A stretch of DNA of 64,000 nucleotides from Planctomycetota bacterium (GTDB lineage: Bacteria; Planctomycetota; UBA1135; GCA-002686595): assembly GCA_022446815.1 (NCBI GenBank), contig JAKVCD010000017.1, forward strand, positions 84,907 to 148,906, written 5' to 3'. Every line of letters starts with the position of its first letter. Positions within the stretch are counted from its first letter, which is position 1. Below the pieces are notes generated by a model that was not told the origin of the DNA, ran no database searches, and saw only the letters and a list, made by a program, of their open reading frames with translations. The position numbers were made by a program, and so were the translations under genes. This document shows, in pieces, positions 4,459 to 29,708 of this stretch.

Positions 4459-6107
4459 CCTGTGACTCGCAGCTCCTTCGGGTAGCGCAGCTCCACAGAG
4501 TAGACGAGGTCAGCCTCTCCGTTCGCGGGCACGTTGAGCTCCCAAGTATGGATCCCCTCTTCCTCTAGCTCTTGATCCCAGCGCTCACCCGTGAGGCGCG
4601 CGGGCTCGCTCCTAGGAACAAGGACCTCAAGCCTAGAGTCCTTGGAGATCGGCACGGACTCTCTAACGAGCACCGTCACAGAGCCGTCTGCGTTAGCGAC
4701 GGTGCTCCCAAAGTTCTCAAAGTGGACACGCCAAGAGCGGCGCTTGCTCATGACGCTCGAGAGGAAGCCGGGCTCCTCCTCGATGTCTTCAAACTGTGTG
4801 CGCTCAACGCTGATCATCGGCGCAGCCCCGAGATGGAGCGTGAACTCTTGCTCTGCCTGGACCATCCCGAGGGAGGCTTCGCCGAGATAGTCTGCGCCAA
4901 AGAAGACCGCAGCTCGCCCAGGCAGGAGAGTCCAGGGGCTCGTATTGCTCGCGACACCTCTCAACCAGACCGTCGGGTCCAAGGCCGGCGCACAGTAATA
5001 CTCTGGATCGGCCTCTAACTCAGCCTGGCCGACAAGGACGAGCGTCGGCTCATCCCTTGACTCTACGGTTTCGACCCTCGCGATTCGGTAGCGCAGCGAG
5101 AGCCCCTCAGACTCAACGGCCGCATGAGTCCACGCGAGATCAGCGACCCCGCCCTCTCGCACCTCTTCACCTAAAGAACCGATCGCTTCCATAGGCATCG
5201 CCTCGCTGTCGAAGCTCACTGCCCTGCTGCCGAAACGCTCCTTCGCCGCAGGCTCTAGGACGTCCACCCAATTGGACTGAGGGTCAGGCCCCTGCGCGCC
5301 GAGGTGCGGTTGAGCTGTCGAGAGCAAGAGCTCCACGTTGTCCCAATCCTCCAGGGTCTTCTGATAGACCTCTGCGCGATAGACGAGCCGAACGCTCTGC
5401 GCGTCGCTCGCGGCACGCAGGTCATAGACCGGGCTCCAGCCGGCGCGATTGACGACGTACTCAACCTCAATGCGCCCGCCGGCGCCAGACAGACCAGCCG
5501 TCTCGACTAAGACATCGACCACAGGGCGGAGCGCGCCGCTGCGCGCATCGCCGATCTCATGCTCAAGCCTCTTGATCACCTCGCCCTGCTCTTGAAGCGC
5601 CCAGCCGAGCTCTCGCTTCTCGGTGAGCAGCTGATCCATCCTGCGTGAAAGGAACTCAAAGCTTGCGTCCCATGCCTCAACAGGGGCGGTCCCCTCCGAG
5701 AGACTCTTCGCGCTCGCCTCCTGCTCCCGGTTGAAGAGCTCGGTGAGGTGTGCCCGCATAGCCTCGTTCAATCTCCCCCGATCATTCGCTGCCTCTAACT
5801 CCCGCCTAGCAGCCTTGAGCTCCTCCACGAGGGCGGCGATCTCCTCGTCAGAGACCTCTTTTTGTAAGCGCTCGAGGACCTCCACTCGGACGATCTCTGC
5901 GCTCGCACACTTCACCCTGACCCTAGAGCGATCGAGATCATTCGTAAGTCCGGAGATGACGTAGCTCCCGTCGGCAGAGAGCAGCTCAGAGGAGCGGTGG
6001 ACATGGGCCGAGTTCGGGTAGACCGTCACCGAGTCGATACTAGCGTCGAGGACCTGCGGGTCCTGCGAGAGGGGCGCGGCTAAGAGAGCGAATGCGAGAA
6101 CTTGCAT
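4452..6107 (-). CDS. MuiA-family protein (DUF4139/DUF4140), secreted
   Basis: 551 aa with a cleavable-looking signal peptide (MQVLAFALLAAPLSQ). The N-terminal DUF4140-type region begins SIDSVTVYPNSAHVHR and is followed by a helical, Glu/Arg-rich stretch (about residues 85-180) likely to form a coiled coil. The C-terminal DUF4139-type beta-rich region has VEYVVNRAGWSPVYDLRA, YRAEVYQKTLEDWDNVELLLSTAQP and a late VHFENFGSTVANADGSVTVLVRESVP. Members were named for mucoidy inhibition in E. coli; the biochemical function is not established. The start is supported by AGGAGG six bases upstream. It is probably the first gene of a two-gene operon with the 5'-nucleotidase. Confidence 0.85.
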   Translation of the reverse strand: MQVLAFALLAAPLSQDPQVLDASIDSVTVYPNSAHVHRSSELLSADGSYVISGLTNDLDRSRVRVKCASAEIVRVEVLERLQKEVSDEEIAALVEELKAARRELEAANDRGRLNEAMRAHLTELFNREQEASAKSLSEGTAPVEAWDASFEFLSRRMDQLLTEKRELGWALQEQGEVIKRLEHEIGDARSGALRPVVDVLVETAGLSGAGGRIEVEYVVNRAGWSPVYDLRAASDAQSVRLVYRAEVYQKTLEDWDNVELLLSTAQPHLGAQGPDPQSNWVDVLEPAAKERFGSRAVSFDSEAMPMEAIGSLGEEVREGGVADLAWTHAAVESEGLSLRYRIARVETVESRDEPTLVLVGQAELEADPEYYCAPALDPTVWLRGVASNTSPWTLLPGRAAVFFGADYLGEASLGMVQAEQEFTLHLGAAPMISVERTQFEDIEEEPGFLSSVMSKRRSWRVHFENFGSTVANADGSVTVLVRESVPISKDSRLEVLVPRSEPARLTGERWDQELEEEGIHTWELNVPANGEADLVYSVELRYPKELRVTGW

Positions 6108-27823: not shown

Positions 27824-27863
27824 AAAAAAGAGCGCGGGGCAAGCATCGCTGCCCGCCCCGCGC
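27824..27863 (-). terminator. Rho-independent terminator of the Cys-Sec selenoprotein gene
   Basis: GCGCGGGGC at 27832-27840 pairs with GCCCCGCGC at 27855-27863 (9 bp). On the minus strand it is followed by TTTTTT (the A-run at 27824-27829). It sits 24 bases past the extended stop at 27887, and not near the internal UGA at 28025. That supports reading through the UGA. It may also serve the convergent DUF309 gene. Confidence 0.8.
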
Positions 27864-27886
27864 GTGTCTCATTCTGAGAGGAGGTC

Positions 27887-29077
27887 TCAGCCCTTAGTCG
27901 TGGGCCCCTCATCTCCTTTACGCTTCATCTTCAGATCTCCGAGCAGGGGGTGCTCGTACTCAAGGGTCACTGCGGGGTCGGCCTTGTCATCTACACTCAC
28001 GGTGTAGTCATCCCAGCGACCGCCTCAGCACAACTTGAAGCGACCTGAGGCGATCTGCTTCTTCGTGCGCTCATCCGTCACGAGGATCTTGGGGCCGACA
28101 TCAGAGGGTGAGAAGCCCTTGTACTCTTCACCGGCCTTGCCGAGGAAGCGCAGCGCGTTCGGAGAGACGGTGATCTTCCCGTTGTCGAACTTCCAGTCAT
28201 AGACCGCCGTAACCGGGCCACCCCACTCGAGGGCGTAGGCACCAGCAGCGGGGACCTCGAAGGGCTTCATGTCGCCCTTCTGGATCTGGGCTGAGAGGCT
28301 CCGCTTCTTGATCGCGGCGCTCTTCAGCACGTAAGAGCCTGCGGGGACCTTGAGGCCCTTCTTGCAGTCAGCGAGGTTGAACTGGAAGCGACCGTCGGTG
28401 CTCTCTACGAGCGCCGAAGTCAGGCTGCCGTTACCCTCGTACTCCTTGGTCATGTCGAGGTTACCGGTCTCCCCCTCGAAGGCTGACCAGCTGGCGGCCT
28501 GGCCGTTAGCCTGAAGCTCCAAGGAGTAGAGCTCTCCACCGAGGCTCAGAACCTCAGTGATCGGCGTCGCCGCCTCACCCTTGCCGTCGACATAGCAGTC
28601 CACCGCGTAGTCGTTCCAGCGACCGTTGCTGTTGGCATCAATGATCGAGACCATGTTGCCGTTGACCTTGCCCTTCATGACCCCGCCAGAAGCATAGAAC
28701 CACTTCTCGCCGGTGTGGCGCAGGCGGATGGCATAGGTGAAGGAGTTGCCCTCTGCGTCCTCGCCCTTGAGCTTGGCGCTGCCCTTCATCCCTTTGCAGG
28801 TCTGGTCGAGTCGTCCGTCACCGTTCGTATCGATGTCTAGCTTCTCAGCACCCTCAGGTCCGTAGACCTTCGCGAGGAAGCCGCCCCCGTCACCGTGGGG
28901 GATCGAGATCTCATCCGTGATCTCTACCCAAGACTCGCCGGGGACGACGTACTCCCATTTGCTTACGGGCTTGTAGTCCAAAGACGCGCTGTTCCCCTCA
29001 GAGCCTGCCGCGGTCGCCGAGCTAACGACGGCCAAGCACATCAGGCTGAAAGAGGAGAGGTTTCTAGCAGTGGTCAT
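27887..29077 (-). CDS. secreted protein with a C-terminal Cys-Sec pair (in-frame UGA), new family candidate
   Basis: 396 residues when the TGA at 28025..28027 is read as selenocysteine (residue 351), giving FKLCUGGRWDDYTVSVDD and 38 more residues to a TGA stop. A signal peptide is present (LMCLAVVSSATAAGS). The mature part is beta-rich with two EF-hand-like DxNxDG-type loops (IDTNGDGRLDQ about residues 80-90; IDANSNGRWNDYAVD about 150). The segment after the Sec repeats the phrase GRWxDYxVxxDxK found at the second loop, so the readthrough part is homologous to the body of the protein. The vicinal Cys-Sec recalls the GCUG redox end of mammalian thioredoxin reductase. A six-bp SECIS-like hairpin follows the UGA, and the only terminator is beyond the extended stop. 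I do not recognise the family. No clear Shine-Dalgarno. Confidence 0.8.
27991..28007 (-). promoter_or_regulatory. predicted bacterial SECIS hairpin of the Cys-Sec protein
   Basis: CUACAC-CGUGA-GUGUAG: a perfect 6-bp stem with a 5-nt loop having G at position 2. The stem starts 17 nt after the UGA and the loop 23 nt after it. Both values are close to those of the hairpins in the two other UGA genes nearby. Confidence 0.75.
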
Positions 29078-29279
29078 ATGAAAATTTGTGGTTTGGGCCC
29101 GGAGAGGGAGGCAGAGAGTGCCATCGGTCGTCCAAGCCGATTTCTACCTTGCAGCGTACGCTCAGGGCATAGATTCAGCCACATTGAGATGCCTCGCACT
29201 ATGTAACTAAGAGGCAAATGCGGTTTTTGGGGCATAGAGCGGCTCCCTCGAGCGAGTGAGCCGCGCGCTGGTGACGGCT

Positions 29280-29627
29280 CTAGAAGAGCTCTTCGTAGGC
29301 CTCTGGGTGGAAGCCGATCATCCAGGTCTTTCCCTTCCGAATCGCGGGGGCGCGGAGGTTTCCGCTGGGGCCTAGGCAGGCCTTGATGAGCTCTGCCTCC
29401 TGGGGGGGGTCGTTCTTGAGATCGAACTCTACGATCTTCTTCCCCTTAGCGACTACCACACGGGTCGCGTCCCCCAAGACCTTCATCAGGTCACGGTCTC
29501 CGAAGCGCTCTTTAGTTGCGTTGACGGTCTCACGGATCGTCACGTCGCGTCCGGCGAGGAAATCGTCGGCGCGGGTGCAGCTCGTTCAGCCCTTTCGGTG
29601 GTAGTACCAGTCGATTCTCTTCGCCAT
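29280..29627 (-). CDS. ArsC/Spx-like thioredoxin-fold selenoprotein with in-frame UGA (UxxC)
   Basis: 115 residues. The ATG at 29627 has a perfect AAGGAGG six bases upstream, and codon 14 is TGA (29586..29588). With Sec inserted the N terminus reads WYYHRKGUTSCTRADDFL, the ArsC/Spx/glutaredoxin-like pattern where Sec replaces the first Cys of CxxC. The remainder, with RETVNATKERFG, VVVAKGKKIVEFDL, then GPSGNLRAPAIRKGKTWMIGF, is the arsenate-reductase-like fold with its cis-Pro (RAPAIR). Starting only at the GTG at 29543 would remove the active site and leave no ribosome site. Probably a redox enzyme of the thioredoxin superfamily; substrate unknown. Lies between the Cys-Sec protein and the peptidase genes, all on the same strand. 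Confidence 0.9.
29546..29573 (-). promoter_or_regulatory. predicted bacterial SECIS hairpin of the UxxC protein
   Basis: A 10-bp imperfect stem: CGCG/CGCG, CCG/CGG and CGA/UCG, with one A bulge and one A-C mismatch, capped by the loop UUUCC. It begins 12 nt after the UGA and the loop begins 23 nt after. The spacing fits, but the loop lacks the G usually found in its first two positions, so this is a weaker SECIS than the other two. Confidence 0.55.
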
Positions 29628-29708
29628 GTGAGCCCTCCTTGAAGCTCTCTCCTGATTGGGTCAGCGCTGGCCTATGAGGATCCCATAGACGACAGCAGCC
29701 TACAAAAA

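Follow-up and report, generated by a model that had tools for sequence, protein, structure and literature searches.

Does the UGA that closes a 350-codon reading frame in this planctomycete DNA end a protein, or is it a sense codon for selenocysteine (Sec) within a longer one, and what kind of protein would that be? In the window (the whole stretch of 64,000 nucleotides that was analyzed), the frame runs on the minus strand from the ATG at 29077 to a TGA (ORF 28025..29077), continues in frame for 45 codons and closes at a second TGA (27889..27887). The original prediction had the coordinates and the 350-codon frame with its 45-codon continuation right, and its main reading, that the UGA encodes Sec in a candidate new selenoprotein family, was supported by the family comparison and by a hairpin. 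Judged from sequence, Sec insertion at UGA 351 is well supported, and the probability that this is a genuine selenoprotein family is put at about 0.96. The gene is easily missed because mechanical ORF calling stops the protein at the UGA. The features of the locus are as follows.

27887..29077, minus strand: predicted selenoprotein gene from its ATG through the second TGA, coding for 396 residues of which number 351 is Sec (frame and family alignment)
28025..28027, minus strand: UGA codon 351, predicted to be read as Sec (TGA in 70 of 82 loci at the aligned column)
29006..29077, minus strand: likely signal peptide of about 24 residues (sequence inspection)
28598..28639, minus strand: EF-hand-like acidic loop, residues 147-160 (28-row alignment)
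27890..28231, minus strand: Sec-containing C-terminal beta domain (residues 283-396; from a model of the domain with mean pLDDT 81.2)
27991..28007, minus strand: SECIS-type hairpin CUACAC-CGUGA-GUGUAG, its stem beginning 17 nt and its loop 23 nt beyond the UGA
27832..27863, minus strand: intrinsic-terminator-like stem-loop 3' of the second TGA, 14 pairs, then TCTTTTTT
29280..29627, minus strand: upstream neighbor, an ArsC-family selenoprotein gene with UGA at codon 14 (29588..29586)

The 14-pair site at 27863..27832 is the terminator that had been noted just past the extended stop; four weaker terminator-like sites found in the same scan all lie on the plus strand.

To collect homologs, a protein search was run in 61 related genomes, of which 45 gave matches, and a 28-row profile search in 392 genomes of the phylum, of which 95 gave matches at 1e-20; both counts include long paralogs that share the beta domains only. 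The phylum search contributed 30 returned loci and a further 38 picked by score, UGA and length. From 106 scored loci, 8 duplicates and 16 loci below 140 bits were removed (among the latter L118 and L119, which carry a UGA at the motif), and the remaining 82 non-redundant loci, from Planctomycetota, were aligned. At the column of codon 351 the alignment holds TGA in 70 loci, TGC in 6, TGT in 1 and other codons in 5, a proportion of 70 UGA to 7 Cys that overstates the share of Sec because the 38 loci were picked partly by UGA. Neither TAA nor TAG occurs at this column among the 82 loci. The terminal stops of 65 Sec genes (five with unclear ends omitted) were TGA in 31, TAG in 21 and TAA in 13.

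The residue pair at the site is Cys-Sec in 52 loci, Ser-Sec in 7, Sec-Sec in 4, Gly-Sec in 4 and Thr-Sec in 3. Pairs without Sec in second place were CC (3), SC (2), LC (1), a reversed Sec-Cys (1, L096) and five others. The alignment of L105 is doubtful, and in L113 the UGA is displaced. It had been asked whether homologs simply end at the Cys before the UGA. They do not: conservation extends beyond the UGA, and five clean homologs (L028, L039, L041, L045 and L078) have Cys in place of Sec. The pattern by which bacterial selenoproteins are recognized, a UGA aligned with UGA or Cys and conservation beyond it, was thus found here with 70 UGA and 5 clean Cys among 82 loci. Invariant in the 28 aligned rows are D147, G152 and D160 of the acidic loop, and G202, P245, Y249, G286, P324 and Sec/Cys. 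In a maximum-likelihood tree built with the active-site columns left out, by a quick method that gave weak deep forks and several long branches, Sec forms are spread throughout and Cys requires at least two changes.

Conservation of the tail was also apparent at close range. Between the window gene and its same-genus homolog, 128 of 135 tail nucleotides are identical, compared with 83 of 135 in the ungapped 3' flank, and the seven differences after the UGA all fall at third codon positions (six synonymous, one not), a bias that is weak taken alone (P 0.07 against the body's own distribution). Two arguments offered earlier for translation of the tail did not hold up. The motif GRWxDYxV does occur in both body and tail, but in the 28-row alignment the body copy is part of a DxNxNGxxxDxGxD-like loop and the tail copy part of a GGGFxxYSxxVP-like stretch; since the copies fall in different family motifs, the repeat is taken as a chance likeness. 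Third-position G+C is 0.82 in the body and 0.69 in the tail, but it is also high in the 3' flank (0.76), so the measure discriminates nothing.

The predicted 6-bp hairpin with loop CGUGA, 17 nt after the UGA, was confirmed and proved to be conserved in the family. The loop lies 23 nt from the UGA in 62 of the 70 Sec rows and 20 to 32 nt from it in the other 8. Two stem geometries occur, one unbulged and one in which a U bulges out of the 3' arm. A fixed-register six-pair stem in either geometry was complete in 64 of 70 rows, compared with a mean of 2.96 (sd 1.71, maximum 10) in 500 synonymous randomizations that kept the amino acids and drew codons mostly from the rest of the gene; because both geometries were read from the tested sequences, this is a test of consistency and not an independent prediction. 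Counting from the loop, the second base pair links a first codon position with the third position two codons further on. All 70 rows have it paired, where 31.9 were expected (maximum 42), as G-C in 35, U-A in 16, A-U in 15 and C-G in 4. With the unbulged geometry applied to every row, the covariation score was 0.376 against 0.083 for shuffled alignments (0 of 500 as high) and paired cells reached 77.3% against 61.2%, both scores being inflated by sequence relatedness. Two of five covariation measures were unremarkable: 62 of 500 shuffles reached the count of pairs changed on both sides, and 152 of 500 reached that of further pair types. When the register was slid, scores fell below those of the true one on four measures and equaled it on one.

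The full stem is kept in one of the five clean Cys rows (L078), and also in the Sec-Cys locus, where its register follows that locus's own UGA. In two Sec-Sec loci (L026 and L100) the first UGA lies 23 nt ahead of the loop and the second UGA 20 nt. A test of hairpin energy against synonymous codons gave a mean z of -0.56 over 70 rows, where the four control windows ranged from -0.34 to +0.08, and 40% of randomized copies matched the stability of the window hairpin; it told little, and the fixed-register pairing test was used instead.

The accessible text of a 2026 selenoprotein inventory (PMC13188914) gives limits for the bacterial SECIS element (bSECIS) of a 3- to 9-nt loop, a 4- to 16-bp stem, a loop 16 to 37 nt from the UGA, a G within the first two loop positions and a free energy of -7.5 kcal/mol or lower. 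The window hairpin satisfies the shape limits (loop CGUGA, stem 6, distance 23 nt), and its computed energy is -19.7 kcal/mol over the 57 nt after the UGA and -6.3 kcal/mol for a 30-nt piece around the hairpin. No Rfam SECIS match was obtained, either over the whole window at gathering scores or over 27860..29700 at E up to 5. With SelB-decoded bSECIS selenoproteins the window gene shares the in-frame UGA, the hairpin directly downstream with its loop at 23 nt, and Sec/Cys exchange in homologs; it differs from them in lacking a sequence match to a named family and in its nearly all-beta model. The hairpin would direct Sec decoding in a SelB-type arrangement.

The presence of the sel genes in the genome had been named as a check, and the outcome was mixed. 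The assembly that holds the window (3.2 Mb, 92% complete) contains selB (353 bits) and selA (409 bits, interrupted by a contig end), both over cut-off; neither tRNA-Sec (selC) nor selD gave a match over cut-off there. These two are present on a single contig of a same-genus genome (G001; its selD contains one TGA), in which the selB match is below cut-off. Over the 61 related genomes, matches over cut-off numbered 58 for tRNA-Sec, 59 for selA and 57 for selD. In the phylum sample, 42 of the 50 genomes that carry a Sec form (a hand-compiled list) gave a tRNA-Sec, as did 186 of the remaining 342 (Fisher P 3e-5, for genomes that are related by descent and hence not independent). Of the eight Sec-form genomes without tRNA-Sec, four have selB over cut-off (G000, G229, G301 and G318; selB was searched in 15 genomes) and one has selA (G357), the remaining three being G227, G242 and G302. 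A contig scan, sensitive to close relatives only, returned one Planctomycetota match, isolate ALOHA_ZT_46, at 86% identity.

Inspection of the N terminus indicates that the protein is likely exported. In an AlphaFold model of residues 1-396 with Cys substituted for Sec (mean pLDDT 88.9), almost only strands are predicted, with the Sec position placed between strands of the C-terminal domain. The acidic loop at residues 147-160 may bind calcium, as its EF-hand-like sequence suggests. A thioredoxin fold was not recognized in this nearly all-strand model, and no FAD/NAD(P)-binding domain was matched in Pfam at E up to 1. Mammalian thioredoxin reductase carries a GCUG center. The likeness to that enzyme drawn earlier was correct in that Cys, Sec and Gly follow one another here and that a reductase domain is lacking, but the likeness is weak: 45 residues follow the Sec, and the residue ahead of it varies within the family, with Cys in 52 of the 70 Sec rows and Ser, Sec, Gly or Thr in 18.

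The original prediction did not recognize the family, and neither did the databases. The best match of 28 members had an E of 0.045 in NCBIfam (June 2026) and of 0.0075 in Pfam (GEVED, in 2 of 28); eight divergent proteins gave one NCBIfam match (15.5 bits against a cut-off of 127) and none in Pfam at 0.1. Foldseek against the PDB gave a best E of 5.8e-4 (TM 0.15 to the query) for the whole protein and of 0.011 for the Sec domain, with a best TM to the query of 0.46 among the matches listed, and a PDB profile search gave at best an antibody light chain (E 0.005). No known PDB fold was accepted for the model, since these Foldseek E and TM values are weak. In its accessible text, the 2026 inventory counts 119 selenoprotein families or subfamilies, and none given there is recognizable as the window family (PMC13188914). 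Other selenoprotein families are reported in the accessible part of the deep-Sep paper (PMC12013277), and unnamed members of the present family could be included in a study of two selenoprotein-rich planctomycetes, as far as its accessible text goes (PMC4807772). Nothing nearer appeared among the literature matches listed, the scope of that search excluding preprints and most subscription papers. By sequence, the window gene is a putative member of a new, unnamed family of selenoproteins that are likely exported.

Related architectures were found among the loci and their genomes. One locus of 82 (L098) continues from the family part into a separate AhpC-TSA/thioredoxin domain with WCGPC, and one (L113) has an N-terminal zf-HC2 zinc finger. 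Many searched genomes also carry long paralogs (about 690 to 745 residues; for example L029, L031, L033 and L036), whose central and C-terminal beta domains are related in sequence to the window protein; they differ from it in an additional N-terminal part and, in those read, in having neither Sec nor Cys at the site. No gene is common to most of the 21 neighborhoods compared. In one subfamily (L139-L143 and L145-L147) the gene is followed, wholly or partly, by a protein of about 780 residues with weak TPR matches, a protein of about 500 residues without a Pfam match and a MoxR-type ATPase. The upstream neighbor in the window matches NF041106 (ArsC_rel_Se_1) at 134.2 bits against a cut-off of 85, and mechanical ORF calling yields just an 87-residue piece of it. 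Like the window gene it is a selenoprotein gene on the same strand, 202 bp away, but its product is small and ArsC/glutaredoxin-like, with Sec at residue 14 and no sequence relation seen to the window protein.

For function, about even odds are given to a selenol redox protein that acts after export and relies on a TlpA-like thioredoxin for its recycling. The selenolate of the extracytoplasmic protein would react with an oxidant or an oxidized substrate; members that have a vicinal Cys or a second Sec could then close a selenenylsulfide or diselenide, and in the other members the partner thiol would be supplied from outside. A TlpA/ResA-type thioredoxin would then regenerate the selenol. Because Cys is absent beside the Sec in 18 of 70 Sec rows, a vicinal selenenylsulfide of the thioredoxin-reductase type cannot be general. 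The redox function is suggested by Sec/Cys exchange, by the one thioredoxin fusion and by general knowledge of selenoproteins, and the ArsC-type selenoprotein next door counts in its favor. Counted against it are that the fusion is a single case, that the beta domains are kept without Sec in the long paralogs, that tRNA-Sec and selD are missing from the gene's own assembly, and that the gene adjoins sel genes in four genomes, which allows a role in selenium metabolism.

That last point leads to a possible but rather unlikely alternative, in which the protein would serve the Sec pathway from outside the cytoplasm by binding, reducing, storing or sensing selenium compounds, its own UGA tying the full-length product to selenium supply. 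In four distant genomes from three families of the phylum, the family gene adjoins selD or selA, with selB on the same contig in three and tRNA-Sec in two. It is followed by selD, selA and selB in L149; by selD, selA, a second selD-like frame (by eye, with an in-frame UGA ahead of it), other genes, selB and tRNA-Sec in L150; by selD, tRNA-Sec, selA and selB in L151; and by selA, a small lipoprotein-like frame and, by eye, a selD-like frame in L152. The excess of tRNA-Sec among Sec-form genomes, within its limits of common descent, points the same way. Against this, no adjacent sel gene was seen in the window and twenty neighborhoods of 7.5 to 12 kb, whose ORFs are partly annotated; ordinary selenoproteins such as fdhA also cluster with sel genes, according to the accessible text of PMC4807772; and Cys forms exist.

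The sel clusters held further frames. The 139-residue lipoprotein-like frame beside selA in L152 (8667..8251, minus strand) has a UGA in YYG-U-GGTCNGYSWLIP (motif YYG-U-GG...YS) and a hairpin; it has no match in NCBIfam or Pfam, and it looks like the Sec domain standing alone. An 84-residue frame in the L150 cluster (5284..5033, minus strand), which ends CST-U-GSK-stop and matches no family, is possibly another small selenoprotein. The SelD of L151 (4991..3345, minus strand; 548 residues) resembles the AhpD part of NF041537 over residues 470-542 (E 5.3e-13, far below that model's cut-off), a possible SelD-AhpD fusion.

Trapping of mercury, copper or similar metals or organometals outside the cell by the Cys-Sec pair is unlikely. 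Such pairs occur in the MerB-like SaoL, HgcA, SaoC and the metal-binding MbdU, as described in the accessible text of PMC13188914, but the first residue of the pair is Ser, Thr or Gly in 14 of 70 Sec rows, which makes a poor two-ligand site, and no adjacent metal gene was recognized among the partly annotated neighbors. A redox sensor, in which oxidation of the Sec alters the beta domain and a signal crosses the membrane, is somewhat less plausible still. It would fit the zf-HC2 locus, which combines that finger with the domain as in anti-sigma factors and has an in-frame UGA near the usual place, but that locus is the sole example, it sits on a long branch of the tree and its UGA is shifted in the alignment, and the window protein has no zf-HC2-type domain. 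Finally, it is highly improbable that this UGA acts as an ordinary stop, with the downstream reading due to chance or plain read-through: the lack of tRNA-Sec and selD over cut-off in the gene's own assembly and the weak whole-hairpin energy test would fit such a stop, but TGA at one aligned column in most loci without any TAA or TAG, Cys homologs that read through, and the fixed-register hairpin with covariation above shuffles speak against it.

With UGA 351 read as Sec, a beta-domain scaffold would join the known selenoprotein repertoire, in which most characterized members have a thioredoxin-like fold, as stated in the accessible text of the inventory (PMC13188914). The Cys-Sec, Ser-Sec, Thr-Sec, Gly-Sec, Sec-Sec, Sec-Cys, Cys-Cys and Ser-Cys centers of the relatives form a natural series on the neighbor of Sec, and because the gene adjoins selD, selA and selB in some lineages, a link to selenium supply can be tested. 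Tentatively, and on the improbable side, the Sec beta domain may be an old, dedicated part of planctomycete selenium biology, heading the sel cluster in some lineages and serving as a module, in secreted, lipoprotein-like, thioredoxin-fused and zinc-finger-fused forms, that senses or handles extracytoplasmic selenium or oxidants.
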